Below are positions 14,030-46,606 of a DNA stretch of 64,000 nt, piece after piece; position 1 is the stretch's first letter; each line of letters opens with the position of its first letter. The notes below the pieces were generated by a model. The model worked only from the letters and a program-made list of their open reading frames with translations, made no database searches and was not told where the DNA came from. Source of the stretch: Natranaerofaba carboxydovora (GTDB lineage: Bacteria; Bacillota; Natranaerobiia; Natranaerobiales; Natranaerofabaceae); the NCBI RefSeq assembly GCF_022539405.1, contig NZ_CP054394.1, forward strand, positions 994,501-1,058,500, in the 5' to 3' direction. A program made the translations under genes and the position numbers.

Positions 14030-14032
14030 ACG

Positions 14033-15238: not shown

Positions 15239-15245
15239 CTTTTTC

Positions 15246-15304: not shown

Positions 15305-15359
15305 TTATCGTAATGGTAAGAGACGGGTAATATATAAAAAAAGGAGGTGCTTTTTTCTT

Positions 15360-17251: not shown

Positions 17252-18430
17252 ATGCAGGATGTTATTATCGCTGAGGGAGTTAGAACACCTATCGGAGATT
17301 TTGGCGGGCAGTTTAAGGACCTTTTGGCGAATGATTTGGCAGTTATAACAATAAAGGAAGCTATGCAAAGATCTGATGTAAATTATGATGAAGTTGATGA
17401 AGTGATTCTGGGTAATTGTATACAGCGTACAGACGAGCCTAACCTTGGACGTACGGCTGCCCTAAAAGCAGGGCTTCCAAAGGAAACAACAGGTTTTACA
17501 ATACAAAGACAATGCAGTTCTGGTATGCAGGCAGCAGTATCAGCTTATCAAGAAATTTGCCTAGGTGATGCTGATATAGTGATTGCAGGTGGAGCGGAGT
17601 CTATGAGTAATGCATTATATGTTTTAAAGGGTGCACGTTTTGGTCAAAGAATGGGGCATGGGGGTCTTACAGATAGTTTACTTGAATTATTAACTGATCC
17701 TATCCATGATATTTTGATGGGTAAAACTGCAGAAAATTTGGCTGAAAAATATGATATTACTAGAGAAGAACAGGACGAAATATCTCTTAGAAGTCACAAA
17801 AATGCTAAAAAAGCAACTGAGAATGGGCATTTTGAAGAGGAAATAGTGCCTGTGCCGGTTCCTAAGAAAAAGGGAGAAGCTGAAACGATAAATAAAGACG
17901 AACATGTTCGTCCTGATTTAACCCTTGACAAATTAGCCAAATTACCTCCAGTGTTTAAAAAAGATGGGACAGTAACAGCAGGTAATGCTTCAGGAGTAAA
18001 TGATGGTGCAACTTCACTTGTAATGATGAGTGAAAATAAGGCAAAAGAAAAAAATATAAAGCCTCTTGGTAGGATAGTAAGTTATGCCTGGGCCGGAGTA
18101 GAACCTGATTTGATGGGATATGGTCCGGTACCTGCGACCAAAAAGGCATTAGAAAAAGCTGGACTATCATTAGATGATATTGAACTTATTGAAGTTAATG
18201 AGGCTTTTGCGGCACAGTATTTAGCCTGTGAAAAGCTTTTAGAGTTAGACAGGAATATAGTAAATGTAAACGGTAGTGGGGTTAGTCTTGGCCACCCTGT
18301 TGGAAGTACTGGTGCAAGAATTATACTCACACTTTTAAAAGAAATGCATAGAAGACAAAACAAATACGGTTTAGCAACATTGTGTGTTGGTGGAGGAATG
18401 GGTATGGCTGTAGTAGTAGAGAAATTGTAA
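17252..18430 (+). CDS. Thiolase (acetyl-CoA C-acetyltransferase type)
   Basis: It condenses or cleaves acyl-CoA and acetyl-CoA. The nucleophilic Cys lies in QRQCSSGMQAA, the catalytic His in NGSGVSLGHPVGSTGARI, and the second Cys in LCVGGGMGMAVVVE. 392 residues, normal length. ATG 17252 is chosen because GAAAGGA lies 11 bp upstream, while ATG 17240 abuts that site. No acyl-CoA pathway genes are adjacent; an acyl-CoA dehydrogenase and a MaoC hydratase lie at 57.8-59.7 kb. Confidence 0.93.
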   Translation: MQDVIIAEGVRTPIGDFGGQFKDLLANDLAVITIKEAMQRSDVNYDEVDEVILGNCIQRTDEPNLGRTAALKAGLPKETTGFTIQRQCSSGMQAAVSAYQEICLGDADIVIAGGAESMSNALYVLKGARFGQRMGHGGLTDSLLELLTDPIHDILMGKTAENLAEKYDITREEQDEISLRSHKNAKKATENGHFEEEIVPVPVPKKKGEAETINKDEHVRPDLTLDKLAKLPPVFKKDGTVTAGNASGVNDGATSLVMMSENKAKEKNIKPLGRIVSYAWAGVEPDLMGYGPVPATKKALEKAGLSLDDIELIEVNEAFAAQYLACEKLLELDRNIVNVNGSGVSLGHPVGSTGARIILTLLKEMHRRQNKYGLATLCVGGGMGMAVVVEKL

Positions 18431-18439
18431 GGAGGACTT

Positions 18440-19246
18440 ATGAAACAACCTATCAAAAGATCAGAGCTTAGAATCACTCTCGGAAAATGCTATTATAAAT
18501 TTAAAAGATATTTACAATGGTGTTTTAGTGGTGAAAGATGGGCTAAAACCTATAATAATGAAGTCTTAAGCGAAAAGGTGTTTGAACATCAAACACCTTT
18601 ACTTCGAAAACTTAAAAATGTTGATATGTGGATGCAGTACAATAAAGTGGAAAATCTAAAGATTGCAACCCAAAAAATTAATAAAATTGTTATTAACCCC
18701 GGGGAAACTTTTTCTTTTTGGCGCTTGATAGGAAAACCGTCTAAAAGAAATGGTTATCGTACAGGTATGGTATTGTCTTATGGTCAAATTATTGAGGGAA
18801 TAGGGGGAGGACTATGTCAATTATCTAATTTAATTTACTGGATGACTCTTCATACTCCCTTGACCATTAAAGAAAGATATCGCCATACCTATGATGTTTT
18901 TCCTGATGCTAATAGAGTTTTGCCATTTGGAAGTGGTGCTACCTGTTCTTATAACTATATTGATCTGCAGATATGTAATGAAACAGATCAGTCATATCAA
19001 TTAATAGTTTATTTGACAGATGATTATTTAGTTGGAGAATGGAGGAGCGAAACTGAGCCGTGTCACTCTTATGAAGTATACGAAAAGGATCACTGGATTA
19101 CACACGAATACTGGGGTGGCTATGTAAGGCATAATATAATTCATAGGAAGGTTTACAATCTTCAAGGAGAATTAATTGACGATGAATATGTGACAGAAAA
19201 TCATGCAATTATGATGTATCAGCCATATTTGGAATCTGGTTATTGA
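18440..19246 (+). CDS. VanW-family protein (VanB-type VanW-like, no membrane anchor)
   Basis: 268 residues, with NPGETFSFWRLIGKPSKRNG and EGIGGGLCQLSNLIYWM marking the VanW domain. It lacks the membrane helix and N-terminal module of the other VanW protein at 8521 and resembles the stand-alone VanW of vancomycin-resistance clusters. No van ligase or regulator genes are nearby, so resistance is not implied. It starts 9 bp after the thiolase (AAGGAGGACTT). Its 3' end overlaps an M23-peptidase remnant on the other strand. Confidence 0.88.
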   Translation: MKQPIKRSELRITLGKCYYKFKRYLQWCFSGERWAKTYNNEVLSEKVFEHQTPLLRKLKNVDMWMQYNKVENLKIATQKINKIVINPGETFSFWRLIGKPSKRNGYRTGMVLSYGQIIEGIGGGLCQLSNLIYWMTLHTPLTIKERYRHTYDVFPDANRVLPFGSGATCSYNYIDLQICNETDQSYQLIVYLTDDYLVGEWRSETEPCHSYEVYEKDHWITHEYWGGYVRHNIIHRKVYNLQGELIDDEYVTENHAIMMYQPYLESGY

Positions 19247-19355
19247 ATAATTTGTTTGGGTCAACAGAGTTCCAGCTATCATCAACCTCATCGTATATCA
19301 ATATTTCAAAGTGTAGGTGGGGCCCTGTTGACCATCCTTTACTACCATCACTTCC
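19209..19355 (-). pseudogene. C-terminal remnant of an M23 (LytM-type) peptidase
   Basis: Reading the minus strand from 19355 gives SKGWSTGPHLHFEI, the HxH zinc/active-site motif of M23 peptidases, followed by the usual ending NSVDPNKLF and a stop at 19209-19211. A stop lies in frame at 19356-19358 and no start or upstream domain is present, so only about 48 codons survive. It overlaps the 3' end of the VanW gene by 38 bp. The rest was probably deleted by a rearrangement. Confidence 0.7.
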
Positions 19356-19458
19356 TTAAAGGTATAAAAACAAATTACCTGTTAATTTGTATTCTATAAA
19401 GTTTATTTTTAATGCATAAAAGTTTACAATTTATAAAAATGAACCAAGGAGGGTTATA

Positions 19459-20268
19459 ATGCCTTTTTTTGTTACGGATGATAGGGTGAGTATTTATTAT
19501 GAGGACAAAGGTGAGGGTAAGCCGGTGGTATTATTACATGGTTGGTCAGGAAGTAGGCTGCACTATGGATTTACAGCTCCAGCTTTAAGATCGAAATTTA
19601 GAGTTATCACATATGACCATAGGGGGCATGGAGCTTCAGATAGGCCAGAACAGGGTTTGACACTCAATAGATTTGCAAAAGATTTGGAACAGTTACTTGA
19701 TTATCTAGGGCTTTATGATGTAACAATGGTTGGATGGTCTATGGGGGCTCATGTTCTTTTTGAATATGTCAAAAACTTTGGGACAAAGCGGCTAGAAAAA
19801 GCTGTAGTAGTTGACATGTCTCCAAAATTGATTAATGATGATGAGTGGAAACTTGGTTTATATCACGGAAAATTTGATCATGATGATAACTTAAATGTCC
19901 TAAGTACAATGTGTGAAGATTGGGAAATATTTGCTGAAGAATTTCTTAAGAATGTGGCGCCTGGACTTAGTGAAGAAGAATTTAAAATTTCTTTGAAAGA
20001 GACAAGGACAAATACACCCCATGTTATGTATGCAATGTGGATTGCTATGACAAGTGCTGATTATAGAGATGATCTAGCAAAAATAGATGTTCCAACCCTT
20101 GTTATTTATGGTGATGAGAGTACTTTATACTCCAAAGAAACAGCAGAATATATAATTGAGAAGATTCCTAAAGCTAAGATTGATAAGTTTAAAAACTGTA
20201 CGCATATGCTAGTTTTAGAAGCCCCAGAAAAGTTTAATAAAACAATTGAAGAATTTGTTTTAGAATAA
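19459..20268 (+). CDS. Alpha/beta hydrolase
   Basis: A hydrolase-fold enzyme with oxyanion region LLHGWSGSR, nucleophile Ser in GWSMGAH, acid Asp in IYGDEST and catalytic His in CTHMLVLEAPE. The substrate is unknown; it resembles esterases and peroxidase-like hydrolases. 269 residues; ATG behind AAGGAGGGTTATA. It is a stand-alone gene followed by half of a palindromic repeat and a strong terminator. Confidence 0.88.
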   Translation: MPFFVTDDRVSIYYEDKGEGKPVVLLHGWSGSRLHYGFTAPALRSKFRVITYDHRGHGASDRPEQGLTLNRFAKDLEQLLDYLGLYDVTMVGWSMGAHVLFEYVKNFGTKRLEKAVVVDMSPKLINDDEWKLGLYHGKFDHDDNLNVLSTMCEDWEIFAEEFLKNVAPGLSEEEFKISLKETRTNTPHVMYAMWIAMTSADYRDDLAKIDVPTLVIYGDESTLYSKETAEYIIEKIPKAKIDKFKNCTHMLVLEAPEKFNKTIEEFVLE

Positions 20269-28576: not shown

Positions 28577-28605
28577 TTGACACAATTATAAATATAAACT
28601 AATAT
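28577..28605 (+). promoter_or_regulatory. Sigma-A-type promoter of the riboswitch-transporter operon
   Basis: TTGACA, exactly 17 bp, then TAATAT, about 35 bp before the aptamer. Three TTGCTTA words at 28532, 28551 and 28564 precede it and could be protein-binding sites. Confidence 0.65.
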
Positions 28606-28636
28606 TTAAATATACAACAATTAAATATAATTTTTA

Positions 28637-28807
28637 ATAACTAGGTCCCTGCTTGTTATATGGGGTTAAATTGGAAGTCGGTGAAAAGCCGGCGCGGTCC
28701 CGCCACTGTGATGGGGAGGTTATTTTCACTTTTAGCCACTGGAGTTAGTAACTCTGGGAAGGCGAAGATAACCTATGAACCTAAGCCAGGACACCTGCCT
28801 AGTTATG
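28637..28807 (+). promoter_or_regulatory. Cobalamin riboswitch aptamer
   Basis: The core GGTGAAAAGCCGGCGCGGTC, CCGCCACTGTGATGGGG and the B12 box AAGCCAGGACACCTGCC are all present in order. The closing stem ATAACTAGG / CCTAGTTAT joins the ends. It is a full-length class-I-like adenosylcobalamin aptamer. Downstream expression-platform bases (28808-28880) include CTACG/CGTAG and lead to a terminator before the ABC transporter gene. Confidence 0.93.
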
Positions 28808-28880
28808 CTTCACCTAAGAACTACGAGAGATAGGGAGGTGAGCCCGTAGGATGTGAAATTTTATCAATTGGTCCTGCCGT

Positions 28881-28912
28881 AAAACTCCCATTTCGTAAGG
28901 GAGTTTTTTTAA
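28881..28912 (+). terminator. Riboswitch-controlled terminator
   Basis: The stem AAAACTCCC / GGGAGTTTT with a T-run lies between the cobalamin aptamer and the transporter start, as expected for a switch that stops transcription when B12 is plentiful. Confidence 0.85.
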
Positions 28913-28960
28913 TGGCTGGAATTACTTTATAGGTCTGGTAAAAGGGGAGAGTTTTACTTA

Positions 28961-30673
28961 ATGCTTACAATAAATGATCTTTCAATTAAATATTTATTTG
29001 ATGATAACGAGATCAAAGCAGTTAATAAAGTTACATTTAGTTTAGAACCTGGTGAAAGTGTTGGTATTATCGGAGAAACAGGCAGCGGAAAAAGTACCCT
29101 TGCTCATAGTCTATTGGATCTTATTTCGGCACCCCACGAAAAGCAGGGCGAAATAATAATAGACCAAAAGAACATTTTTGACTTACCTGCTAAAGAAATA
29201 AACGAGCTACGCTGGAGTACTGCAGCAATAGTATTTCAAAACTCCCTTGAAGTTCTAAATCCGGTTATGAAAATAGGAGATCAAGTTATAGAGCCGCTTC
29301 GAAAGAAATCTAGCTTATCTAAAGCTGAAGAAGAAAAAGAACTGCTAAAACTCTTCGATATGGTAGACCTAGATATAAAGTGGAAAGATGCATATCCACA
29401 TCAATTATCCGGTGGTATGAGGCAAAGGATGCTCTTAGCAATGGCTCTTTCATGCAAACCAAAACTATTAATATTAGATGAGCCTACAAGTTCTCTTGAT
29501 GCAATTTCGAGAGAGAAACTTCAAAACCTTTTGAAAAACTTGCAAAATGAATTAGGTTTTTCAATGTTAGTTATATCTCATGAGATAGGTACTATTACAA
29601 AACTAACAGATAAACTTATGATTATGTATCAGGGAGAAATGGTGGAAAAAGGTGTTACAGATGAAATACTAGATTATCCAGCCCATCCATATTCTAGAGG
29701 TTTAATTAATTCCTCTGTTGAGGTTTTTCCCTATAAAGATCTATGGGGAATACCTGGAGAGCCAGAGATAGGTGTGAAAGTATCTAAAAAAGAAAAGTGT
29801 CTTTTTTCTTCTAGGTGTACTCAGATGATTGAAAAATGTAAGAACGAAAGACCAACACATCAAAAAATTTCATTAAACCGTGAGGTTTTATGTCATCAAG
29901 GTGGGATAACAGACGTTTTAAAGGCAAAAGAACTTTGGAAATCTTTTGAACTTGGAAATAGTAGTGTAAGTGCAGTAGCAGGAGTAGATATATCATTAAA
30001 GCATGGAGAAACAGCAGCTCTTCTAGGACCCTCTGGTTCTGGCAAATCTACCCTTGCACACCTTTTGTGTGGCTTTATCCCTCATGATGAGGGGAAGATT
30101 GAATTTTTAAATAAAGAAGTAAATGGCAACTGGGTGGTCAAAGAAGAAGGTGGAATACAATTAATTCTTCAGGACCCTTATAGTTCAATAAGTCATCGTT
30201 TAACCGTATATGAAGCAGTTACAGAACCTTTGTATATTAACAAAATAGGTGATCCAACTGAGAGAACAGACCGATGTAAAAAAGTTTTATCCTCTGTACA
30301 ACTACCTAGTGATGATGAATTTTTAGACAGATGGTGTTCTTCGTTAAGCGGTGGCCAAAGACAGCGTCTTGCAATAGCTAGAGGGCTGATAATGAAGCCT
30401 AAAGTATTGATTGCAGATGAGATAACTTCTATGCTTGATGTTTCTACCCAGGCTAATATTATGAGACTGTTAAAGGGGCTTCAAAATAAGGAAGGGTTTA
30501 GCCTCTTGTATATAACCCATGACCTACAGCTTGCAAGAAAAGTTGCAGAAAAGATTTATGTCTTAGATGAGGGTAAGGTAATAGAAGAAGGTTCTGCGAC
30601 AAAAGTATTTGAAAATACAAGCTGTTGTAAAACTAAAGAATTTATTGAAGCTGGACTTTTAGAAATTAGTTAG
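28961..30673 (+). CDS. Opp/Dpp-type ABC transporter, fused double ATPase
   Basis: 570 residues joining two ATPase domains, like OppD and OppF in one chain. Walker A is GETGSGKST in the first and GPSGSGKST in the second; signatures are LSGGMRQRM and LSGGQRQRL; Walker B ends LLILDEPTS and VLIADEITS. The linker (CLFSSRCTQMIEKC) is the Cys-bearing Opp-family tail of the first domain. It powers uptake with the binding protein and permeases that follow. Control by a cobalamin riboswitch suggests a corrinoid, cobalt or cobalt-chelate substrate rather than ordinary peptides; this is inference. Confidence 0.9.
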   Translation: MLTINDLSIKYLFDDNEIKAVNKVTFSLEPGESVGIIGETGSGKSTLAHSLLDLISAPHEKQGEIIIDQKNIFDLPAKEINELRWSTAAIVFQNSLEVLNPVMKIGDQVIEPLRKKSSLSKAEEEKELLKLFDMVDLDIKWKDAYPHQLSGGMRQRMLLAMALSCKPKLLILDEPTSSLDAISREKLQNLLKNLQNELGFSMLVISHEIGTITKLTDKLMIMYQGEMVEKGVTDEILDYPAHPYSRGLINSSVEVFPYKDLWGIPGEPEIGVKVSKKEKCLFSSRCTQMIEKCKNERPTHQKISLNREVLCHQGGITDVLKAKELWKSFELGNSSVSAVAGVDISLKHGETAALLGPSGSGKSTLAHLLCGFIPHDEGKIEFLNKEVNGNWVVKEEGGIQLILQDPYSSISHRLTVYEAVTEPLYINKIGDPTERTDRCKKVLSSVQLPSDDEFLDRWCSSLSGGQRQRLAIARGLIMKPKVLIADEITSMLDVSTQANIMRLLKGLQNKEGFSLLYITHDLQLARKVAEKIYVLDEGKVIEEGSATKVFENTSCCKTKEFIEAGLLEIS

Positions 30674-30763
30674 TATATGACTAGTCATGATTTTAATATG
30701 TAAAAAAGAAGGGGAAGCAGGAGAACCGTCCCTGAAAAAAGGAAAAAGAGGAGGAAAAACATT

Positions 30764-32410
30764 ATGAAAAAGCTTACAACTTTTATTTCAATTATATTAA
30801 TTATTTCCATTTATGTGTTGGTCTTTGCCGGTTGTGGTGGAACAGAAACCGGTGAAAAAAAGCAACCAGAAGAAGCAGCTAAAGGTGAAGCTGATCAAGA
30901 GAAAAGTGATGATGAAGTAGTAGTACGTCTTGATACTAATGATGAAGGTTATCCTCAGCCATTTACCCATCATGCACGAGGACCCGGAAGAAGCAAGATG
31001 AGGCTAATCTTTGATTCTTTACTTGAAAGAGGGGAAAACGGGCATATCCCCTGGCTAGCAAAAGATTGGGAAGTGTCTGAAGATGGAACTGAGTACACAT
31101 TTTATATAAGAGAAGGGATAGAATGGCAGGACGGAGAGGAGTTAACTGCAGAGGATGTGGCTTTTTCCTTTGAATATTACCAAGATCATCCACCTGTGGA
31201 TATAAGTGAACCTGTTGTTTTCGATATTTTAGAAGATATTGAAGTACTAGATGATTACAAAGTAAAGATGACTACAGAGAGGGCACATGCTCCTTATGTA
31301 TTAGAAGCTGGCGAGATGAGGATAATTCCTAAGCACATCTGGGAAGATATTGATGACCCTCAGCAGTTTACTGATGAAGAAGCTGTGATAGGAAGTGGTC
31401 CCTACAAGTTAAAAGAATACAATGAAGAACATAGTACTTATGAATTTGAAGCTAACCCTGACTTTTGGGGACCTAAACAAAAAGTGGATGTTCTTCAATA
31501 TAGGCCTGTAAGTGATGAAGTAATGGCACTTGAAAATAATGATATCGACCAAGCTGAAATACCTGAAGATGTGTTACAGCGCTTTGAAGATGATCCTACT
31601 TATGAAATAGCTGAAAGACCTGGAGTATGGGCATACAGGCTCAGAATAAACTTTGATAATGTCTCCTGGTTAAACGAACAAAAAGCAAGACAAGCCCTTG
31701 CTTATGCTATAGACCGAGAAAATATAATAAACACAGTTGCAAGGGGAGCTGGTATCCCGGGGAATATGGGGTTATTGCCTCCTGATCATCATATGCATAA
31801 TCCTGACGTGCCAGAATATGAGCATGACCCAGATAAGGCCAGAGAGCTTATGGAAAAAGCAGATGTCATAGATAATAATGAGGAAGTTTCCGTTGAAATT
31901 ATTGTAGGAGATGATCAAGAAGAAGTAAGGATGGCTGAGCTTTTGAGACAAGACTTGAGAGAAATTGGAATTGATCTAGAGATAAATTCCATGGATTCTC
32001 AAGCACGAGACTCCCAATCAAAAGAAGGAAATTATGAGTTAGCTATTATGGGCCATGGTGGCTGGGGGGATGACCCAGAGAATTATTTTAGTATAAGGTT
32101 TGATGATGCCAAGGAAGGTACAGGGATATATGGTGGAATTCCTGGCTACGAAAATGAAGATGTAGACTTAATAAGAGAAAAACAACGTGAAGAGCTTGAT
32201 GAAGAAAAACGAGAAGAACTTATCAAACAAGTTCAGGAAATTTGGGCAGAAGATATCCCTGAGATACCTCTCTACTATGTTACAGGTCATTATGTGTACA
32301 ACAAGGATGTATACGATAATTGGACTTTTGTTTATAACCATCATTCTATTGATCAACACAAGATAACTTACTTAGATAGAGACGATGAAATATTTGAAGA
32401 AGATAAGTGA
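30764..32410 (+). CDS. Family 5 solute-binding lipoprotein
   Basis: 548 residues with a lipoprotein signal peptide whose lipobox is VFAGC (Cys at about residue 24), followed by an acidic linker. The SBP_bac_5 core has RLIFDSLLERGENGHIPWLA, EGIEWQDGEELTAEDVAFSF and RQALAYAIDRENIINTVARG. The family binds peptides, nickel, heme or other ligands. The mature protein is strongly acidic. It is the receptor for the riboswitch-controlled transporter. ATG behind AGAGGAGGAAAAACATT. Confidence 0.92.
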   Translation: MKKLTTFISIILIISIYVLVFAGCGGTETGEKKQPEEAAKGEADQEKSDDEVVVRLDTNDEGYPQPFTHHARGPGRSKMRLIFDSLLERGENGHIPWLAKDWEVSEDGTEYTFYIREGIEWQDGEELTAEDVAFSFEYYQDHPPVDISEPVVFDILEDIEVLDDYKVKMTTERAHAPYVLEAGEMRIIPKHIWEDIDDPQQFTDEEAVIGSGPYKLKEYNEEHSTYEFEANPDFWGPKQKVDVLQYRPVSDEVMALENNDIDQAEIPEDVLQRFEDDPTYEIAERPGVWAYRLRINFDNVSWLNEQKARQALAYAIDRENIINTVARGAGIPGNMGLLPPDHHMHNPDVPEYEHDPDKARELMEKADVIDNNEEVSVEIIVGDDQEEVRMAELLRQDLREIGIDLEINSMDSQARDSQSKEGNYELAIMGHGGWGDDPENYFSIRFDDAKEGTGIYGGIPGYENEDVDLIREKQREELDEEKREELIKQVQEIWAEDIPEIPLYYVTGHYVYNKDVYDNWTFVYNHHSIDQHKITYLDRDDEIFEEDK

Positions 32411-32427
32411 GAGTAAGGAGAGTTATT

Positions 32428-33477
32428 ATGACATCAACTAGAAGTAAAAGGATTAAAACCATACTAGGTTATTTGATTACTTTTTTACTCCTTATCACCA
32501 TAAATTTTTCATTACCCAGGCTTATGCCTGGGGATCCTTTTATACATGCCGGTGGAGAAGCGGGAGAGGTTATAACCTTTTACTCGGAGGATCAGATAGA
32601 ATATTTAAGGGAGTATTATGGTTTGGATGAACCTGTACACAGGCAGTATTTTTCTTATCTAGGCGATACTTTAACTGGTAATTTAGGCTTTAGCTATTAT
32701 TATAATCAAGATGTAAGTCAAATTATTTTAAAAAGACTGCCCTGGACAATGCTTTTGGTAATTTTTTCTACTGCTTTAAGCATAATTTTAGGAATTATTC
32801 TTGGAAGTTACTCAGCAGAAAAAAGAGGCGGATGGCAAGATAGAGCCGTTTATTTGGTGATGATAGTATTTTCAGAAATTCCTGCCTTTTTAATAGGAAT
32901 ATTTTTACTTGTTATTTTAGGAGCCTCTCTTGGATTATTCCCTCTTTCAGGAGGGGTGACTCATTTTACTGTGCATGAATCTATCTGGAGTCAGATAATA
33001 GATATATTGTACCATTCTGCCCTTCCCATTATGACTTTGACATTAAGTCGTGTAGGAGGTATGTATCTTCTAGTTCGAAATAGCATGACAACTGTACTAT
33101 CAAAGGATTACATAAAAACAGCAAAAGCAAAAGGGCTTAAAAAATTTAGGATAAAATATGTTCACGGTCTAAGAAATGCTATCCTTCCCCTTATCACAAG
33201 GGTTTGTCTTCAGATGGGTGGTATAATCGGAGGAGCGGTGCTTGCAGAGAATGTTTTCTCATATCCTGGACTTGGTACTATAATGACAGAAGCAGTTTTT
33301 GTCAGGGATTATCCTTTGCTGCAGGGAATTTTTTTGGTGATGGCACTGACTGTAATGGGGGCTAATGTTCTTGCAGATGTGCTTTATCAAAGACTTGATC
33401 CAAGGACCAAAGCTCCTGTGATTAATCCTAAGAAGACATCTGTATGTGAAACTACAGCAGAAAAAGAATTCAACTAA
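32428..33477 (+). CDS. Opp/Dpp-type ABC permease (OppB-like)
   Basis: 349 residues. The first helix ends FSLPRLMPGDPF, the standard OppB start; the EAA loop is in KTAKAKGLKKFRIKYVHGLR, and the end VLADVLYQRLDPRTK is typical. ATG 32428 fits the SD TAAGGAGAG; a start at 32407 would overlap the preceding gene without a site. It forms a channel with the 33509 product. Confidence 0.92.
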   Translation: MTSTRSKRIKTILGYLITFLLLITINFSLPRLMPGDPFIHAGGEAGEVITFYSEDQIEYLREYYGLDEPVHRQYFSYLGDTLTGNLGFSYYYNQDVSQIILKRLPWTMLLVIFSTALSIILGIILGSYSAEKRGGWQDRAVYLVMIVFSEIPAFLIGIFLLVILGASLGLFPLSGGVTHFTVHESIWSQIIDILYHSALPIMTLTLSRVGGMYLLVRNSMTTVLSKDYIKTAKAKGLKKFRIKYVHGLRNAILPLITRVCLQMGGIIGGAVLAENVFSYPGLGTIMTEAVFVRDYPLLQGIFLVMALTVMGANVLADVLYQRLDPRTKAPVINPKKTSVCETTAEKEFN

Positions 33478-33508
33478 AAGAATTTGTATGGTTTGGTAGG
33501 TGAGAGGA

Positions 33509-34348
33509 TTGGAAAAACTTAAAGAGTGGTGGGGGTTTTTTAGTTTTTTAGGAAAAACTGCTGTAATTATATTATTACTTATAATTGTTATGGGGACATT
33601 AGCCCCGTATCTTTCCGCTTTTCCTCATGATGTAAGTTCAGGACCTCCTTTGGAGCCACCTGGTGGAGAGCATTTCCTTGGGACAGATGAACTAGGTGTA
33701 GACCTGTGGGCAATGATAACCTACGGCGCAAGGGTTAGTATTATTGTAGGTCTTGGTACGGCACTTTTGGCAGGGCTTGGCGGCGGTATTATTGGAATTA
33801 TTGCAGGATACAAGGGTGGATGGTTTGATAAGATCGTGATGAGACTAGTTGATGTAATGATAGCTCTTCCTGACCTTCCAGCCATGATAGTGATAGCGGG
33901 TTTTTTTGGCTCTAGCCTTACTAATATAATTATAGTTTTATCACTTTTTTCCTGGTCAAGGCCTGCACGAATTGCCAGATCTCAAGCCCTTTCCCTTAAA
34001 GAACAACCGTATTTGAAAATGGCATCTTTTTATGGTGGGAGTACTTTTTATCTATTGTACAAGCATTTTGTTCCAGAACTTTTTCCTATATTATCAGTCA
34101 GTATGATAAGACTTGCGAGCAGAGCAATAATCACTGAGGCTTCTCTTGCTTTTATTGGGCTTGGTGATCCAACTTCTAGAAGCTGGGGACTTATATTAAA
34201 CCATGCACTTAACTTTAGCGGGATATATTTTACTCCTTATTGGAAATGGTGGTTATTATATCCATGGCTTGCCCTTACTTTACTTGTTGTTGCTTTGGCT
34301 TTAGTTGGTAGGGATTTAGAAAGAATTGCAGATCCTCGGATGAAATAA
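33509..34348 (+). CDS. Opp/Dpp-type ABC permease (OppC-like)
   Basis: 279 residues. HFLGTDELGVDLWAMITYGA is the OppC hallmark, followed by DIMIALPDLP-like VDVMIALPDLPA and the EAA-loop region. The end VGRDLERIADPRMK is standard. TTG 33509 is chosen, with AGGTGAG upstream; GTG 33500 lies in that site. This is the last gene of the riboswitch operon. Confidence 0.92.
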   Translation: MEKLKEWWGFFSFLGKTAVIILLLIIVMGTLAPYLSAFPHDVSSGPPLEPPGGEHFLGTDELGVDLWAMITYGARVSIIVGLGTALLAGLGGGIIGIIAGYKGGWFDKIVMRLVDVMIALPDLPAMIVIAGFFGSSLTNIIIVLSLFSWSRPARIARSQALSLKEQPYLKMASFYGGSTFYLLYKHFVPELFPILSVSMIRLASRAIITEASLAFIGLGDPTSRSWGLILNHALNFSGIYFTPYWKWWLLYPWLALTLLVVALALVGRDLERIADPRMK

Positions 34349-37979: not shown

Positions 37980-38020
37980 ACTATATATATGTAAATTCCC
38001 ATTGAGGAGGAATGATTTTA

Positions 38021-40414
38021 ATGCATGACAAAAATTTGTTAGGTTATGTGGGCGATCTTCCAGAAATAACGCCACGTATTAAAAAATTGACCAATGATAT
38101 TTTAAACGCTGTTCCAGAAATTGATCCTGAACGGGCTAGACTTTTGACCCAATCATATAAAGAAACAGAAGCTTTACCCATGGTAATTAGGAGAGCTAAA
38201 GCCTTAGAAAAAATTTTGAACGAGATGACTATTGTTATTAGAGACGATGAATTAATAGTGGGCAATCAAACTACAAAACCAAGAAGCAGTCCGGTATTTC
38301 CTGAGTTTTCAAATAAGTGGCTCATGGAAGAGTTTGATAGACTTCCTAAACGCTTAGGTGATGCTTTTAAAATTTCTGAAGAAACCAAGGATGAATTAAA
38401 AGAAATTTTTAATTATTGGGACGGAAAAACTTCTAATGAATTAGCTGCATCTTTGATGAGTAAAGAAGCTGAACAAGCTCAAGATGCTGGTGTTTTCACA
38501 GTAGGTAATTACTTTTTTGGCGGAGTAGGTCACACAACTGTTGATTATGAAGAAGTATTGACATATGGATTTAAAGGGATAATTGAAAAAGCAAAAACAG
38601 AAAAAGATAATTTAAATGTAGCTAAACCCGAAGATATTGAAAAAGAGCATTTTTTAAATGCAGTAATAATTACTTTAAAAGCAGCTATTAATTTTGCTAA
38701 AAGATTTTCAAAAGAAGCTAAAAAGCTAGCTAAAGAATGTGAGGACAAAACAAGAAAAGATGAATTGCACAAAATTGCTGAAGTTTGTGATAAAGTTCCT
38801 GAATATCCAGCAGGAAGCTTTCATGAAGCCTTACAATCGTTTTGGTTCGTACAATTAATAATTCAGTTAGAGTCTAGTGGACACTCCATTTCTCCGGGGA
38901 GATTTGATCAATATATTTTTCCATATTTAAAAAACGATATAGAGAAGGACGATCTTACTCTTAAAAAAGCTCAAGAGATATTAGACGCTCTTTGGGTTAA
39001 ATTTAATGACATTAATAAAGTTAGAGATGAAGGGTCTACTAAAGCATTTGGCGGTTATCCGATGTTTCAAAATCTTATTGTAGGTGGTCAAACCCCTGAT
39101 GGACTAGATGCTAGCAACCTATTATCTTTTATGTGTTTAGAAGCTACAACTCATATAAAAATGCCACAACCCTCAATTTCAGTACGTATCTGGGATAAAA
39201 GCCTTGAAGAATTAACTGAAAAAACAGTCGAAGTAACTAAGTTGGGTCTGGGTATGCCTGCATACTATAATGATGAAGTTATAATACCTTCCCTTGTAAA
39301 TCGTGGTCTGACTTTAGAAGATGCTCGTGATTATTGCATTATTGGTTGTGTTGAACCTCAAAAAGGTGGCAAAACCGAGGGTTGGCATGATTCAGCTTTC
39401 TTTAATATGGCTAAAGTACTGGAACTTACTATAAATAATGGTGTTGAGAATGGCAAACAATTAGGGCCAAAAACTGGAGAATTTACCTCTTTTAATTCTT
39501 TTGAAGAATTTAAACTTGCCTTTGAAAGACAGATGGAATATTTCGTAGCCCTGCTAGTTAATGCAATAAATTCAGTGGATATAGCTCATATGAAAAGAGC
39601 GCCGTTACCATTCTTGTCAAGTATTATTCAAAACTGTATTGAAAAAGGAAAAACAGTACAGGAAGGTGGAGCTTATTACAATTTCACAGGCCCACAAGGG
39701 GTAGGAGTTGCGAACGTTGGAGATTCATTTGCTGTCATAGAAAAGCTTGTTTTTAATGAGCAAAAGCTTAGCCTTGAAGAACTTAAGAAAGCGTTAGACA
39801 ATAATTTTGAAGATGAAGATTTAAGACAAAAGCTTTTAAATGAAGTAGCGAAATATGGTAATGATATTGAGGAAGTGGACATGCTAACTAGAGAGGGCGC
39901 GTTAATCTATTGTAAAGAAGTAGAAAAACATACCAACCCAAGAGGAGGGATATACCAACCAGGTTTGTATCCCGTATCAGCTAATGTACCTTTAGGAGCT
40001 GCAACTGGTGCAACCCCCGAGGGAAGAAAAGCTAGAACTCCCCTCGCAGATGGAGTTTCACCTGTATCAGGTATGGATCGAAATGGGCCTACGGCTGCAA
40101 TTAACTCTGTAGCAAAACTTGACCATCATATAGCATCAAATGGAACTTTGTTAAACCAGAAGTTTCACCCTTCTTCCCTTGAAGGTGAAAGTGGCCAAAG
40201 AAATCTTGCTGCATTAATAAATGGCTTCTTTGATCAAAAAGGTTTACACATCCAAAACAATGTTATAGACAAAGAAACTTTAATAAAAGCTCAGAAAAAT
40301 CCTGACAAATATTCTAGCCTTGTGGTAAGGGTAGCAGGTTATAGTGCATATTTCACTTCTTTAGATAAGTCGCTACAAGATGATATTATTAACAGAACTG
40401 AGCAGAACTTTTAA
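38021..40414 (+). CDS. Glycyl-radical B12-independent diol (glycerol/1,2-propanediol) dehydratase
   Basis: 797 residues of the pyruvate formate-lyase family. The thiyl Cys is residue 443 in IIGCVEPQ, the Glu two residues on is the general base, and GKTEGWHDSAFFN follows as in glycerol and propanediol dehydratases. The radical Gly is residue 773 in RVAGYSA. These features favour diol dehydration over choline lyase or formate-lyase activity, but substrate needs testing. The ATG at 38021 has GAGGAGGAATGATTTTA before it; the in-frame ATG 38012 abuts the SD. Its activase follows. Confidence 0.88.
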   Translation: MHDKNLLGYVGDLPEITPRIKKLTNDILNAVPEIDPERARLLTQSYKETEALPMVIRRAKALEKILNEMTIVIRDDELIVGNQTTKPRSSPVFPEFSNKWLMEEFDRLPKRLGDAFKISEETKDELKEIFNYWDGKTSNELAASLMSKEAEQAQDAGVFTVGNYFFGGVGHTTVDYEEVLTYGFKGIIEKAKTEKDNLNVAKPEDIEKEHFLNAVIITLKAAINFAKRFSKEAKKLAKECEDKTRKDELHKIAEVCDKVPEYPAGSFHEALQSFWFVQLIIQLESSGHSISPGRFDQYIFPYLKNDIEKDDLTLKKAQEILDALWVKFNDINKVRDEGSTKAFGGYPMFQNLIVGGQTPDGLDASNLLSFMCLEATTHIKMPQPSISVRIWDKSLEELTEKTVEVTKLGLGMPAYYNDEVIIPSLVNRGLTLEDARDYCIIGCVEPQKGGKTEGWHDSAFFNMAKVLELTINNGVENGKQLGPKTGEFTSFNSFEEFKLAFERQMEYFVALLVNAINSVDIAHMKRAPLPFLSSIIQNCIEKGKTVQEGGAYYNFTGPQGVGVANVGDSFAVIEKLVFNEQKLSLEELKKALDNNFEDEDLRQKLLNEVAKYGNDIEEVDMLTREGALIYCKEVEKHTNPRGGIYQPGLYPVSANVPLGAATGATPEGRKARTPLADGVSPVSGMDRNGPTAAINSVAKLDHHIASNGTLLNQKFHPSSLEGESGQRNLAALINGFFDQKGLHIQNNVIDKETLIKAQKNPDKYSSLVVRVAGYSAYFTSLDKSLQDDIINRTEQNF

Positions 40415-40433
40415 ACTAAAATTAAATCTATAA

Positions 40434-40457
40434 AAGAGGCCCTTTTAATTGGGCCTC
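40434..40457 (+). other. Intercistronic hairpin between dehydratase and activase
   Basis: AGAGGCCC / GGGCCTCT with an 8-base loop and no U-tract. It probably stabilises or tunes the two-gene mRNA rather than ending it. Confidence 0.6.
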
Positions 40458-40490
40458 TAACAAAATTGTCATATAGGGAGGGGCTTTTCT

Positions 40491-41456
40491 ATCATTACTA
40501 ATAATTCTATTAATTATAAAGGCTCGGCAGACAGAGGAATGGTTTTCGATATTCAAAGATTTTCTGTACATGATGGTCCAGGTATTCGTACCGTTATTTT
40601 TTTAAAAGGATGTCCGTTATCTTGCTCATGGTGCAGCAACCCAGAATCGCAGCAATATGAACAAGAGATAATGTTTAACCCAAGCCTTTGTATTGAATGT
40701 AAAAAGTGTGTTGGCGCTTGTTCAGTTAAAGCTATTAGTTATGATACAGTAACTAGAATAGATCGTGATAGCTGTGTGAACTGTAAAAATTGTGTTGAAG
40801 TATGCAATAGCAGAGCTTTAGAACTTGCAGGTTATGAAGCTACAGTAGAGGAGCTACTTAAAGAAATAGCTAAAGATAAAATTTATTATAAACGTTCAAA
40901 GGGTGGAATTACCCTTTCTGGAGGTGAACCGCTTTACCAGAGCGATTTTGCTATTAACTTGTTAAATGCATGCAAAAGTAAAGGTTGGCATACTGCGCTG
41001 GAAACTTCTGGATTTGTGTCTCAGAGCTCGTTAAAAGAAGCCATTAACTTTTTGGATTTATTATTATTTGATATTAAATCCATGGATTCAACAAAAATTA
41101 AAGAGGAACTTAATGTTTCTAATCAAATAATTTTGGATAATGTCCAATTAGCAGCAAGGAAAGATGTTCCTATTATCATAAGAAAAGCAATCATACCAGG
41201 GTTTAATGACAATGAAAAGGATGTTAAGTCTACTGCTAAGTTTGCTAGGTGGCTCGGAAAGAATGTAAAAGGGATAGATTTACTACCTTATCATAGACTT
41301 GGTGAAAACAAATATAGATATTTAGGGAAAAAGTACCTGTTAGAAGGGGCAAAACCACCTTCTAATGATAAGATGCAAACTTTTAAAAAAATAATTGAAG
41401 AAGAAAGAGTTCCTGTAACTATAGGTGGTAGTGGTGGTTTTTATTTGGAGTTATAA
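40491..41456 (+). CDS. Glycyl-radical enzyme activating protein (radical SAM)
   Basis: It makes the Gly radical on the dehydratase. Motifs: the SAM cluster CPLSCSWCSNPE, then two ferredoxin-type clusters CIECKKCVGAC and CVNCKNCVEVC, and GGITLSGGEPLYQ. The first ATG (40539) begins at MVFDIQRFSVHDGPGIR, has GAGGA directly against it, and cuts off residues normally present. The frame is open upstream to ATC 40491 or ATT 40494, behind GGGAGGGG at 40476-40483. I therefore extend to 40491 (321 residues) and regard a non-ATG start as likely. Confidence 0.85.
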   Translation: MITNNSINYKGSADRGMVFDIQRFSVHDGPGIRTVIFLKGCPLSCSWCSNPESQQYEQEIMFNPSLCIECKKCVGACSVKAISYDTVTRIDRDSCVNCKNCVEVCNSRALELAGYEATVEELLKEIAKDKIYYKRSKGGITLSGGEPLYQSDFAINLLNACKSKGWHTALETSGFVSQSSLKEAINFLDLLLFDIKSMDSTKIKEELNVSNQIILDNVQLAARKDVPIIIRKAIIPGFNDNEKDVKSTAKFARWLGKNVKGIDLLPYHRLGENKYRYLGKKYLLEGAKPPSNDKMQTFKKIIEEERVPVTIGGSGGFYLEL

Positions 41457-41483
41457 CTACATTGAACTATAGATTTGTTGTAG

Positions 41484-43199
41484 TTATTTTAAACTATATT
41501 TACCCATTTTCTTCGATAAAGTTGTCCTATCAATATTTAGTTTTCTAGCAGCGTCAGATAGACTGCTGCTATTTTGGATAGCTTGTTTTATTAACCTAAT
41601 TTCATATTTTCGCACCTCATCTTTTAAACTTTTAAATTCATTACTATCCTTGCCTTCTAAAGCATTTTTTAATTCCAAAGGCACATCATGAAGTTTTACT
41701 AGTTCTTTTTCGCTTAAAAGTATAAGTCTTTCAATAGTGTTTTCAAGTTCTCTAACATTACCAGGCCAGTCATAATTGTAAAATAAATCTAAAACCTCTC
41801 TAGATATTGTTTTGTTTAAACCATGTTTATTATTGTATTTATCTAAGAAATGTAGGGTTAAAGGGAGGATATCCTCCTTTCTGTCTCTCAAAGGTGGGAT
41901 TTTTATAGGTATAACATTCAGTCTGTAGAATAAATCATCCCTAAATCTGTTTTCATCGGCTAACTTTTTTAAATCTTTGTTAGTGGAAGCAATAACACGC
42001 ACATTGATCTGACGTGGAGTGTCACTTCCTATTCTATTAACTTCTTTTTCCTGTAAAACTCTCAAAATTTTAACCTGAAGGTGAAAAGGTATTTCACTTA
42101 TTTCATCTAATAAAATAGTTCCTTCATGAGCAAGTTCAAAATAACCAGCTTTCCCCTTTTTTAACGCACCAGTGAAAGAGCCGGATTCGTATCCAAACAG
42201 TTCTGACTCTATTAGTGATTCCGGTATAGCACCACAATTAACCCTAATATAAGGCTTGTCTTTTCTATTGCTTATTTCATGTAACATTTTTGCGAAAACT
42301 TCTTTTCCAGTTCCTGACTCACCTGTCAATAATACTGTAGAATTAGTATTTGCAATTCTTGAAATGATTTCCATGGTTTTATTAAAAGCCTTACTTTTAC
42401 CAATAGCCTTTGCTTTGGCATTTTTAATTGATCTTAGCCTGTCAACTTCAGAACTAAACTTAATTGTTTTTTCATGTTCTTTTTCTAATTCTTTTTTGTA
42501 ATAACTTAATTCTGTGATATCTCTCACGTTTGTTACTACTTGAGTTATATTTCCTTTTGAATCAAAGATCGGGTTGCCTGTTACAATAACTTCCTTGCCT
42601 GTTTTTTCGATTTTTTGCATTATAGTTTTGGTTTTTTTTTCTTTCAAAGCAAGCAAAGAAACTGATTCACTGATATATCCTGCCTTCACTAAATCTTCCA
42701 TGTGTTTTCCTATAACTTCAAAGCCTTTTAGACCGGTGATTTTCTCATATCCCTCATTTACATATACTGTATACCCGTTTGCATCGGTAATATAAATTCC
42801 GTCGTATGAAGCCCTTAAAATGTCTGCAAGCATTTGATTCCACTCTAAATGTTTTTGTATATGGGATATGTCTTGAAACACTGAAACAGCACCGATGATT
42901 TTACCATCATTTTCAATTAAACTTTGATTAGACATTATTTCTTTTTCGCCAATCTTTATTCTTTCGCCAAGGTAATCAGTACCTTCTTCTAGTCTTTTGA
43001 GTAATGTGGAATAAGGCATAACTTCATTAATTTTTTTTTCTATAGCTTTTTCTTGTTTAATTTGAAGTATATTTTCGGCACCTTCATTGAAAAAAATTAT
43101 TGTGCCTTCACAGTTAATTACCAGTACACCATTATATATGCTATCTAAGATATTTTTATATAATTTATTGTTATTTTGCCTATAATTACTGTCACTCAT
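41484..43199 (-). CDS. PAS-PAS-AAA-Fis sigma-54-dependent activator
   Basis: 571 residues: two PAS domains (about 12-110 and 125-230), a coiled linker, an AAA+ domain (about 265-500) with Walker A GESGTGKE, loop SGSFTGA (Ser in place of the usual Ala in GAFTGA) and Walker B ILLDEISEI, and a Fis-type HTH at the end (LSDAARKLNIDRTTLSKKM). It should drive the two -24/-12 promoters on either side. The PAS domains presumably sense substrate, aldehyde or redox state. Minus-strand ATG behind GGGGAGGGGCAAAA. Confidence 0.92.
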   Translation of the reverse strand: MSDSNYRQNNNKLYKNILDSIYNGVLVINCEGTIIFFNEGAENILQIKQEKAIEKKINEVMPYSTLLKRLEEGTDYLGERIKIGEKEIMSNQSLIENDGKIIGAVSVFQDISHIQKHLEWNQMLADILRASYDGIYITDANGYTVYVNEGYEKITGLKGFEVIGKHMEDLVKAGYISESVSLLALKEKKTKTIMQKIEKTGKEVIVTGNPIFDSKGNITQVVTNVRDITELSYYKKELEKEHEKTIKFSSEVDRLRSIKNAKAKAIGKSKAFNKTMEIISRIANTNSTVLLTGESGTGKEVFAKMLHEISNRKDKPYIRVNCGAIPESLIESELFGYESGSFTGALKKGKAGYFELAHEGTILLDEISEIPFHLQVKILRVLQEKEVNRIGSDTPRQINVRVIASTNKDLKKLADENRFRDDLFYRLNVIPIKIPPLRDRKEDILPLTLHFLDKYNNKHGLNKTISREVLDLFYNYDWPGNVRELENTIERLILLSEKELVKLHDVPLELKNALEGKDSNEFKSLKDEVRKYEIRLIKQAIQNSSSLSDAARKLNIDRTTLSKKMGKYSLK

Positions 43200-43346
43200 T
43201 TTTGCCCCTCCCCTGATATTAATGGGTATTTTCGGACGATATGCTAGTAAATGTTAAAGAAATCACTAATGAATGTAATATAACAGCGGGTGATTTACCA
43301 TGCGATATTAGTATAGCATAGACATATGATTTTAACAACATAGACC

Positions 43347-43379
43347 GTGACATATTTCACTTATAGTGAAATATGTCAC
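43347..43379. promoter_or_regulatory. Double activator site, perfect palindrome
   Basis: GTGACATATTTCAC and GTGAAATATGTCAC stand five bases apart and together form a perfect inverted repeat extending to ACCGTGA...TCACGGT (43344-43382). It lies between the activator gene (-) and the alcohol dehydrogenase operon (+), so it could serve both. Confidence 0.6.
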
Positions 43380-43439
43380 GGTTGAAATATTTAGGCAATT
43401 AACACAGAAGGGGTTAACGATTGCGGGGGGTTGTGGTGC

Positions 43440-43453
43440 GTGACAATATTCAC
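43440..43453. promoter_or_regulatory. Third activator site upstream of the alcohol dehydrogenase
   Basis: GTGACAATATTCAC followed by GG, with the same GTGA-N6-TCAC pattern, 144 bp before the -24/-12 promoter. Confidence 0.5.
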
Positions 43454-43596
43454 GGTTTATAAATCAAATTAAAATAAATGACATCTAACATGGATAGTTG
43501 CGATATAAAAATACCTATAAAAATAACTCAAAGGATCCGCTTATAAAGATCTTTGTAAAATCTAAAAGTCTAAATTATTGTATAAAAGAAACTGAA

Positions 43597-43612
43597 TGGC
43601 ATGGTTTTTGCA
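43597..43612 (+). promoter_or_regulatory. Sigma-54 (-24/-12) promoter of the B12-arm operon
   Basis: TGGCATGGTTTTTGCA has GG and GC ten bases apart, matching the consensus closely, about 86 bp before the alcohol dehydrogenase start. Confidence 0.78.
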
Positions 43613-43697
43613 AGTTAAATAATTAGTAGAATTGTTGGAATTTTAATTAACTTTATTATGTTAAAAATTTTGATGCAAGTGAAAGGATGGAATAGCG

Positions 43698-44834
43698 ATG
43701 AATAATTTTACCTGGCTTTCACCAACACAAATTATATTCGGAAATGATTCCATTAAATCATTAGAAGAAGTAATTCAAAAATATAAAGCAAAAAACGTCT
43801 CAATAATTACCGACCAAGGAATAATGGGAACTGATATACTAGAGAAGGTCAAAAAAGTTATAGGGAAAGATATTGAGACAAACGTTTTCTGTGAGCTTGA
43901 TGGGGAACCTGATACTGACGATTTGAAAAAATGTAAACAACACGTCATTGAAAATCAAAGCGATGTATTAATAGGCCTCGGGGGTGGGAGTTCGATTGAT
44001 GTGGCTAAAGCTGTTTCAGTTCTAGTGACTAATGAATCAATTGGTTTAGACCAAAATAATGAAATAGAGAACTTAGGACTTCCTACTATAATGATACCTA
44101 CTACAGCTGGCACAGGAGCAGAGCTTACCAAGATATCCATCTTCTCAGGAGATAAGGTCAAATTAAGGTTAGTCCATGATTATCTATATCCAAATGTGGC
44201 TATCTGTGATCCTAAAATGACCCTTAGTATGCCAGGCAGTATAACTACATCTACAGGTATGGATGCACTTACCCATGCTATTGAAGCTTACACCTCAGTT
44301 AAAGCCAACTATCTCACCGATATAATAGCCTTTGAAGCAATCAAAAAAATCTATTTTAATATACGCACAGCTTATGCAAAAGGAGAAAATATTATAGCCA
44401 GGGAGAATATGTTAGCAGGTAGCTTACTTGCTGGGATGGCTTTTTCAAATGCAGGGGTTGGTGCAGTGCATGCTATGGCATATCCGATAGGAGGGAGCTA
44501 TCACATACCTCATGGTATAGCCAACTCTCTTTTGCTGCCTCACGTACTTGAGGCAAACTTTAATGGAATTGTTGAAAAGCTGGCAGTAATAGGAAAAACC
44601 TGGGGATTAAGAGGTGATTATACCCAAATAGATATAGCAAATAAAACCGTTGAATTAATTAAAAATCTGTCAACGTCACTGGATATACCCCAGCGTTTAA
44701 GAGACTTTGATATTCCTGAAGCAGAACTGCCTGAACTAGCTAAGGCTGCATCAGAAATTACCGGCCTTATGCAAAATAATCCAAGTAATTTGTCGCAGGC
44801 AGACTTACTAAAGGTTTACAAAAATGCCTATTAA
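43698..44834 (+). CDS. Iron-containing alcohol dehydrogenase (1,3-propanediol/1-propanol type)
   Basis: 378 residues. The NAD-site motif is IGLGGGSSIDVAKA; metal ligands lie in TGMDALTHAIEAY and AVHAMAYPIGGSYHIPHGIAN. In this locus it should reduce the aldehyde from the dehydratases to 1,3-propanediol or 1-propanol and recycle NADH. It is the first gene after the second sigma-54 promoter. The ATG follows GAAAGGATGGAATAGCG. Confidence 0.92.
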   Translation: MNNFTWLSPTQIIFGNDSIKSLEEVIQKYKAKNVSIITDQGIMGTDILEKVKKVIGKDIETNVFCELDGEPDTDDLKKCKQHVIENQSDVLIGLGGGSSIDVAKAVSVLVTNESIGLDQNNEIENLGLPTIMIPTTAGTGAELTKISIFSGDKVKLRLVHDYLYPNVAICDPKMTLSMPGSITTSTGMDALTHAIEAYTSVKANYLTDIIAFEAIKKIYFNIRTAYAKGENIIARENMLAGSLLAGMAFSNAGVGAVHAMAYPIGGSYHIPHGIANSLLLPHVLEANFNGIVEKLAVIGKTWGLRGDYTQIDIANKTVELIKNLSTSLDIPQRLRDFDIPEAELPELAKAASEITGLMQNNPSNLSQADLLKVYKNAY

Positions 44835-44869
44835 CAGGCAATAATTGAATTCTGGGAGGAGGAAAGGAA

Positions 44870-46606
44870 ATGAGTGAAAAGATTGTTAGAATTAATATGT
44901 CTAATTTAGAGGTAACTGAAGAAAAAGCAGATGAAAAGTACAAGCTTTTAGGGGGGCGGGCATTAACATCTACGGTGATAAAAGAAGAAGTGCCGGCTGA
45001 TTGTAATCCTTTACGGAAAAATAACAAAATTATAATAGCTCCGGGACTTCTTACAGGCACAAGTGCTCCTGCTTCTGGCAGGTTATCAATTGGAGGGAAA
45101 AGCCCTCTTACAGGAACAATAAAAGAAGCTAATGCCGGAGGTATCTGCAGCCAAAAGCTTGCAAGATTAGGAATCAAAGCTTTGATTTTAGAAGGTCAAC
45201 CAAAAGAAGATAAAATATACACGATAAAAGTAACTAAAGACTCAATTGACCTTGAAGAAAAATATAACTTTAAAAACTTGGGTGTATATCAATTAATGGA
45301 TGATGTAAAAGAGACTTATGGCGACAAAGTAGGAATGCTTGCCATAGGTCCAGCAGGTGAGATGCTAATGCAGACTGCTGGAATTACTAATAATGATATG
45401 GATAACGAGCCAAGCAGATATGCTGCAAGAGGTGGTCTTGGAGCAGTTATGGGTTCTAAAGGTGTCAAAGCAATAATCATTGATGATACCGACGCACCTA
45501 AAGTAGAAGTTAAAGATGAAAAAACATTCAAACAGGCTAGGAAAAAACTTCAAGAAGCTATTAAGAACCACCCGGTAACAAGTGGTGCTCTGCCATCTTA
45601 TGGTACTGCCGGAACAGTTGATCCGATAAATGAATCAGGTGGACTCCCAACAGAAAATTTTAAATTTGGCCAATTTGAAGGCGCTTCTAATGTGTCAGGG
45701 GCAAAGATGGCTGAAATAGTTGAACAGCGTGGTGGTAAAGGCAAGATGGGACATGCCTGCCATCCTGGCTGTACTATTAGGTGTTCAAATATTTATCCAG
45801 ATAAAGACGGCAACGTACTATGCTCACCGCTTGAATATGAGACTGATTGGGCTCTTGGTCCAAATCTAAAAATTGATGACTTAGACATCATAGCAAAACT
45901 AAACCGCATCTGTAATGACGTTGGAATAGATACCATAGAAACTGGTTGTACAATTGGAGTTTTGATGGAAGCAGGTGTTTTAAGTTTTGGAGATGGCGAA
46001 GGGGCAATAAAAGCTTTGGAGGAAGTAGGTAAAGGCACACCTCTAGGTAGGATAATCGGCATGGGAGCAGTTGGCGCAGGAAACGCTTACGGTATAACCA
46101 GAGTACCAAGTGTTAAAGGGCAGGGTATGCCTGCTTATGACCCAAGAGCAATGAAAGGTATTGGTGTAACTTATGCTACAGGTGCCATGGGAGCAGACCA
46201 TACTTTCGGTTATACAATAGCTCCAGAAATATTTAAATGTGGAGGAGATCTTGATCCATTATCAACAGAAGGGAAAGTAGAAGCTTCTAGAGATACTCAG
46301 AAATTATCTGCTTTTATAGATAGTGTAGGCCTATGTTTGTTTGTAACTTTTGCTACCAGCGATGACAAAAATGGCGAAGAAGGGATCTACGAAATGATCA
46401 ATGCCATGTATGGAAGCGACTTAGACACAGAAAAAGCAATGGAATATGGAAGAGACGTTTTAAAACTAGAAAGAGAATTTAACAAGGAGGCTGGCTTTAC
46501 ACCAGTTCATGACAGGCTGCCTGAATTTATGTATGATGAAGAGCTTCCACCTCACAATGAAGTTTATAATATTCCCGGTGATGATCTAGACAAAGTTCAT
46601 CAGTAA
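44870..46606 (+). CDS. Aldehyde:ferredoxin oxidoreductase (tungsten-type)
   Basis: 578 residues. It has the tungstopterin region GGRALTS and SIGGKSPLTGTIKEANAGG, the AARGGLGAVMGSKG motif and cluster Cys in ACHPGCTIRC with the distal Cys in GLCLFVTF. The family oxidises aldehydes to acids with ferredoxin. Beside diol dehydratases it could oxidise 3-hydroxypropanal or propanal, balancing the alcohol dehydrogenase. This would replace the CoA-linked route of classical Pdu clusters. Confidence 0.9.
   Translation: MSEKIVRINMSNLEVTEEKADEKYKLLGGRALTSTVIKEEVPADCNPLRKNNKIIIAPGLLTGTSAPASGRLSIGGKSPLTGTIKEANAGGICSQKLARLGIKALILEGQPKEDKIYTIKVTKDSIDLEEKYNFKNLGVYQLMDDVKETYGDKVGMLAIGPAGEMLMQTAGITNNDMDNEPSRYAARGGLGAVMGSKGVKAIIIDDTDAPKVEVKDEKTFKQARKKLQEAIKNHPVTSGALPSYGTAGTVDPINESGGLPTENFKFGQFEGASNVSGAKMAEIVEQRGGKGKMGHACHPGCTIRCSNIYPDKDGNVLCSPLEYETDWALGPNLKIDDLDIIAKLNRICNDVGIDTIETGCTIGVLMEAGVLSFGDGEGAIKALEEVGKGTPLGRIIGMGAVGAGNAYGITRVPSVKGQGMPAYDPRAMKGIGVTYATGAMGADHTFGYTIAPEIFKCGGDLDPLSTEGKVEASRDTQKLSAFIDSVGLCLFVTFATSDDKNGEEGIYEMINAMYGSDLDTEKAMEYGRDVLKLEREFNKEAGFTPVHDRLPEFMYDEELPPHNEVYNIPGDDLDKVHQ

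Follow-up and report, generated by a model that had tools for sequence, protein, structure and literature searches.

A cobalamin riboswitch-led Opp/Dpp/Nik-type importer operon in Natranaerofaba carboxydovora and its possible link to cobalt uptake

Importer operon and riboswitch leader

A cobalamin riboswitch and an ATP-binding cassette (ABC) importer operon lie together in a 64,000-nt stretch of the Natranaerofaba carboxydovora genome (contig NZ_CP054394.1, positions 994,501 to 1,058,500; hereafter the window). Four co-directional importer genes stand directly 3' of the riboswitch (Table 1). They encode a complete Opp/Dpp/Nik-type set, with an SBP_bac_5 substrate-binding protein (SBP), two BPD_transp_1 permeases, and two Opp-type nucleotide-binding domains. 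The latter are joined in one protein with two full sets of Walker A (positions 38 and 356), signature (LSGG, 149 and 462), Walker B (DEPTS/DEITS), and H-loop (205 and 518) motifs, and an oligo_HPY C-terminal region lies between the halves. Motifs and family matches thus bear out the fused double ATPase, family 5 lipoprotein, and two permeases of the initial annotation. The sequence GAGAACCGTCCCTG between the ATPase and SBP genes was considered as a dispersed repeat, which was rejected on its single occurrence in the genome.

The aptamer is the sole Rfam match within the window, with a score of 112.9 bits against RF00174 (gathering score 31.5; E 1.6e-27), in agreement with the full aptamer annotated initially. 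The dapB-like gene upstream of the riboswitch is divergent, so the riboswitch can serve the importer operon alone. Folding of positions 28800-28915 predicted a three-part attenuator consisting of a P13-like hairpin, an antiterminator, and a terminator, which confirms the terminator platform described earlier. The OFF-like fold (P13-type hairpin and terminator) has a predicted energy of -29.2 kcal/mol, and the antiterminator fold with the terminator 3' arm blocked has -22.2 kcal/mol; the predicted antiterminator and terminator are mutually exclusive. The terminator loop is 9 nt, and for this reason a pattern scanner overlooked it. Two paralogous leaders elsewhere in this genome share the loop CUACGA..GGAU.GGGAGG and the CUCCC/GGGAG terminator, and one has a compensatory C-G to U-A change in P13. 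By analogy with the riboswitch family, from which the OFF direction and the switch ligand are both taken, the leader would be a transcriptional OFF switch. The promoter, earlier called a consensus promoter, is placed correctly, but its match is not significant alone (2.4 such sites per shuffle), and it is plausible by position only.

Table 1. Features of the riboswitch-led importer operon (positions in the window)
Feature	Position	Strand	Basis or remarks
Sigma-70-like promoter, TTGACA-17-TAATAT	28577..28605	+	10/12 consensus matches, 20 nt 5' of aptamer
Class-I cobalamin riboswitch aptamer, RF00174	28626..28816	+	Covariance-model match, full length (1-189/189)
P13-like anti-antiterminator hairpin, predicted	28807..28843 (arms 28807-28815/28836-28843)	+	Folding; ligand-bound OFF state
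Antiterminator, predicted	28822..28897 (arms 28822-28828/28891-28897 and 28833-28837/28885-28889)	+	Folding; ligand-free ON state
Intrinsic terminator	28881..28910 (stem 28881-28889/28899-28907, then U-run)	+	Folding
Fused double Opp/Dpp-type ABC ATPase, 570 aa	28961..30673	+	Motif reading and family matches
SBP_bac_5 substrate-binding lipoprotein, 548 aa, pI ~4.3, lipobox VFAGC	30764..32410	+	
OppB/DppB/NikB-type permease	~32428..33477 (alternative GTG start 32407)	+	BPD_transp_1
OppC/DppC/NikC-type permease	33500..34348	+	BPD_transp_1

Binding-protein clade and genomic linkage

Aligned seed sequences were used to look for relatives of the binding protein across 398 genomes of the phylum, and the neighborhoods of these relatives were then fetched and mapped. 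Clade members are present in 49 of these genomes; a single-protein scan of genome contigs found distant relatives only. In a maximum-likelihood tree of 69 rows, clade support is 99/96 (100/99 minus one outlier), and the clade is separate from Escherichia coli DppA, OppA, and GsiB. E. coli NikA joins outside the clade and is the reference attaching nearest to it, with long branches that make its placement uncertain. Most clade loci encode two permeases and a fused double ATPase. Recurrent neighbors include FmdE (PF02663), TrmO_N (PF01980), a class I S-adenosylmethionine (SAM) methyltransferase, CbiM/CbiN, and aldehyde:ferredoxin oxidoreductase (AOR); for FmdE, TrmO_N, and the methyltransferase, a connection with a metal chelator is possible.

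In six clade operons, each from a different family, a leader riboswitch lies within 1.5 kb on the correct strand, compared to ~0.09 expected (P ~7e-10, assuming independence and even riboswitch density). The expectation is based on 286 riboswitches (Rfam counts) over ~138 Mb in the 49 genomes and on 58 loci, and riboswitches in the fetched loci were located by profile search. The count includes the window, itself chosen for its riboswitch; without it five operons remain, still far beyond chance. The six are the window (riboswitch-ATPase-SBP-permeases), L053 and L133 (both riboswitch-methyltransferase-SBP), L103 (riboswitch-FmdE-SBP), and L120 and L122 (both riboswitch-SBP). Outside this count, L058 is a seventh riboswitch-tied case, with the order riboswitch-cbiM-cbiN-DUF3842-SBP. 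As a small control, six paralogous non-clade SBPs (five operons) in the fetched loci had no riboswitch leader. Genes for CbiM are also close to clade SBPs more often than expected, within 8 kb in six genomes where 0.68 would be expected (P ~8e-5). At 15 kb the count is nine genomes against an expected 1.23 (P ~6e-6), and three of the nine belong to one genus.

Two of the mapped neighborhoods have additional features. The L120 locus (genome G298) carries five cobalamin riboswitches in 17 kb, located separately 5' of the clade SBP, CbiO, CbiM, and other genes. At L093 (genome G096), the clade operon adjoins an energy-coupling factor (ECF) module (9833-16153) that includes a DUF4430 protein and a surface protein combining SLH and alpha-toroid regions. 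The DUF4430 and SLH/alpha-toroid proteins presumably resemble the two domains of transcobalamin, and this module may be involved in surface corrinoid binding.

Binding pocket and transporter identity

Residues that contact the ligand are useful for distinguishing members of this importer family. In the E. coli structures, Asp408 of DppA forms a salt bridge with the peptide amine, and W100, R137, W398, and H416 of NikA are ligand residues. Alignment to the E. coli references places W434 of the window protein at the DppA D408 position, which is W, L, I, or F across most of the clade. The pocket loop GHGG-W/L precedes and includes this position, and its H431 is kept in 38 of the 59 clade sequences. 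An N-terminal signature, D-W-G-Y/F-P-x-P-Y/F-x-H-Y-x-R-G-P-G, contains R72, which is kept in 54/59. Among solved structures, the Listeria protein Lmo0135 and DppA ranked first by profile search. An AlphaFold2 model of the binding protein built from four sequences had a pLDDT of 49.9.

Several known identities were rejected for this importer. A Dpp/Opp peptide importer was rejected because the aspartate for the peptide alpha-amine is replaced. NikABCDE was rejected on its TIGR02294 score (165.9 bits, cut-off 393) and because the four NikA ligand residues are not kept, and CntABCDF, a metallophore importer, on the CntA model NF047575 (123 bits, cut-off 800). The gene-tree placement against nickel and cobalt proteins suggested in the initial annotation does not make the window protein a NikA. 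The best named NCBIfam matches of the binding protein and permeases are nickel/cobalt families, all far below cut-off. BtuFCD was rejected because the permeases are BPD_transp_1 and not FecCD; PF01032 (FecCD permease) had no match anywhere in the genome, whereas the same search was positive in 13 of 14 control genomes. The absence of a FecCD permease means that the genome has no BtuFCD.

Cobalamin riboswitches and related transporters in the genome

Nine cobalamin riboswitches are present in the genome (G000), and terminators lie downstream of most of the others checked. Their targets include the cbiM/cbi operon, cobT, and an ECF module followed by a UbiD-family gene, and several targets have no evident B12 role. 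Riboswitches on cbiM/cbi and cobT, among the nine, indicate that a corrinoid regulon exists in this genome. Only two SBP_bac_5 proteins are encoded.

At the ECF module (L016, G000:C1:1415370-1421376), two cobalamin riboswitches stand 5' of a UbiX-like flavoprotein gene and the ECF importer, upstream of the UbiD-family gene; this locus possibly serves corrinoid uptake and lower-ligand chemistry. Two other riboswitches (L001, G000:C1:1930776; L002, G000:C1:3251834) precede a pssA-like phosphatidyltransferase gene and a TIGR00374 flippase-like gene. They are 75-76% identical to the window riboswitch, and this similarity suggests that one riboswitch copy has recently spread in front of genes lacking an obvious B12 role.

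Proposed function and alternatives

The operon is real and is probably a functional B12-repressed importer. At low levels of adenosylcobalamin or a related corrinoid, the leader would form the antiterminator and allow transcription of the four genes. At high levels, formation of the aptamer and P13 hairpin would release the terminator and switch the operon off. The aptamer, platform, and co-directional genes support the initial proposal of a B12 riboswitch controlling an importer of this type. The most likely cargo is a cobalt complex feeding the cell's own B12 synthesis, a reading in which we have about even confidence. The type-I (Opp/Dpp/Nik family) importer, with its distinct binding-protein subfamily, would take up Co2+ bound to a small chelator and add high-affinity uptake to that of CbiM, the cobalt transporter under its own riboswitch. 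Cobalt, a cobalt chelate, or a corrinoid had been suggested earlier as cargo, and the missing peptide aspartate, the riboswitch and CbiM neighbors, and the lack of a BtuC-type permease are in line with that range.

Cobalt transporters are among the common targets of cobalamin riboswitches (Sun et al., 2013, PMC3766115). Citing Rodionov (2006), Zhang et al. (2009, PMC2667541) describe a B12 riboswitch before NikABCDE-family operons in both Clostridium tetani and Desulfitobacterium hafniense, and these importers are read as cobalt-specific. The cobalamin riboswitch of Sporomusa ovata nikA was assayed in a Bacillus subtilis reporter and is described as promiscuous for corrinoids (Kennedy et al., 2022, PMC9600662). 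Because such nik operons are published, this type of arrangement is already known; a B12 switch before an Opp/Nik-type importer is rarely seen but has been reported, and the idea that it lacks precedent is not supported. By published description, the C. tetani and D. hafniense operons share with the window a cobalamin riboswitch before a Nik/Opp-family importer, but the window operon has a fused double ATPase and a binding protein that lacks the tested E. coli NikA residues. The S. ovata likeness is one of gene name and upstream riboswitch, and there the switch alone was assayed, not the transporter. E. coli NikABCDE belongs to the same ABC importer superfamily and has the same subunit set, but it is a NikR-regulated nickel importer with separate NikD and NikE. 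E. coli DppABCDF and OppABCDF have the same fold and gene set, with DppA among the closest solved sequences, but the DppA aspartate becomes hydrophobic in the clade. CbiMNQO is a cobalamin-riboswitch-controlled cobalt uptake system that adjoins clade operons in several relatives; it differs from the window importer in being ECF-type with no soluble binding protein.

Several observations weigh against cobalt-complex import. About 50 of the 58 clade members have no riboswitch leader. Riboswitch-led members are scattered over both main branches of the tree, which implies repeated gain or loss of the leader; its presence on several separate branches may reflect local regulation rather than a clade-wide trait. 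The residues with which E. coli NikA holds a metal chelate are absent from the binding protein, and many neighbors (FmdE, TrmO_N, class I methyltransferase, AOR) are not specific indicators of cobalt. A CbiM-type cobalt transporter with its own riboswitch is already present and may make another cobalt system superfluous.

The main alternative is that the importer carries corrinoids (cobinamide, cobamides, or another tetrapyrrole) in place of the absent BtuFCD, which we consider rather unlikely. The lack of any FecCD permease, the B12 riboswitch in the leader, and the ECF module with its surface protein beside the G096 clade operon are consistent with it, and the glycine-rich GHGG loop could accommodate a larger ligand. 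However, the riboswitch-controlled ECF system at L016 could itself be the corrinoid importer, and linkage to CbiM is commoner than linkage to corrinoid importers. To our knowledge, no Opp-type transporter is known to carry corrinoids. The broader proposal that this SBP subfamily imports corrinoids in Gram-positive anaerobes that lost BtuFCD is more doubtful; if true, these proteins would join BtuFCD and ECF systems as a third type of importer for corrinoids.

It is improbable that this is an importer of ordinary oligopeptides or dipeptides whose riboswitch arrived by duplication and has no bearing on cobalt or corrinoids. The family overall consists of peptide transporters, and the riboswitch paralogues (75-76% identical) before the pssA-like and flippase-like genes suggest that the riboswitch copy spreads, but the residue for the peptide amine is missing and linkage to riboswitches and CbiM recurs in unrelated families. 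Least probable is import of nickel or another metal chelate, with B12 control arising from a chelator or demand shared by cobalt and nickel. The NCBIfam matches point toward nickel/cobalt families, though far below cut-off, and E. coli NikA joins nearest the clade; against this, NikA residues are not kept and the leader is a B12 switch.

The clade provides a testable set of ~60 importers with the signature motifs HY-x-RGPG and GHGG, seven of them tied to cobalamin riboswitches. Identifying the ligand of one member would allow uptake of cobalt chelates or corrinoids to be assigned in many anaerobes. The genome also shows that a B12-regulated importer can be present where FecCD permeases are missing altogether.

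Additional observations

The importer had been proposed to feed a nearby diol locus. In the mapped neighborhoods, no diol dehydratase, glycyl-radical enzyme, or reactivase homologues were found beside clade SBPs, and the proposal was not borne out. The B12-dependent diol dehydratase genes are 12-15 kb downstream of the operon with unrelated genes between, and the connection is one of co-location only. As read from open reading frames, window positions 38012-53581 encode a glycyl-radical diol dehydratase and its activase, an iron alcohol dehydrogenase, AOR, B12-dependent diol dehydratase subunits, and a reactivase.

Two further cobalamin riboswitches were mapped in this genome. One (L003/L012, G000:C1:20336-20528, minus strand, 125 bits) has a convergent chemoreceptor-like gene (18131-20119, plus strand) as its downstream neighbor and is possibly an orphan or an antisense RNA. 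The other (L004/L013, G000:C1:2111146) is located 5' of ferredoxin and AOR genes.

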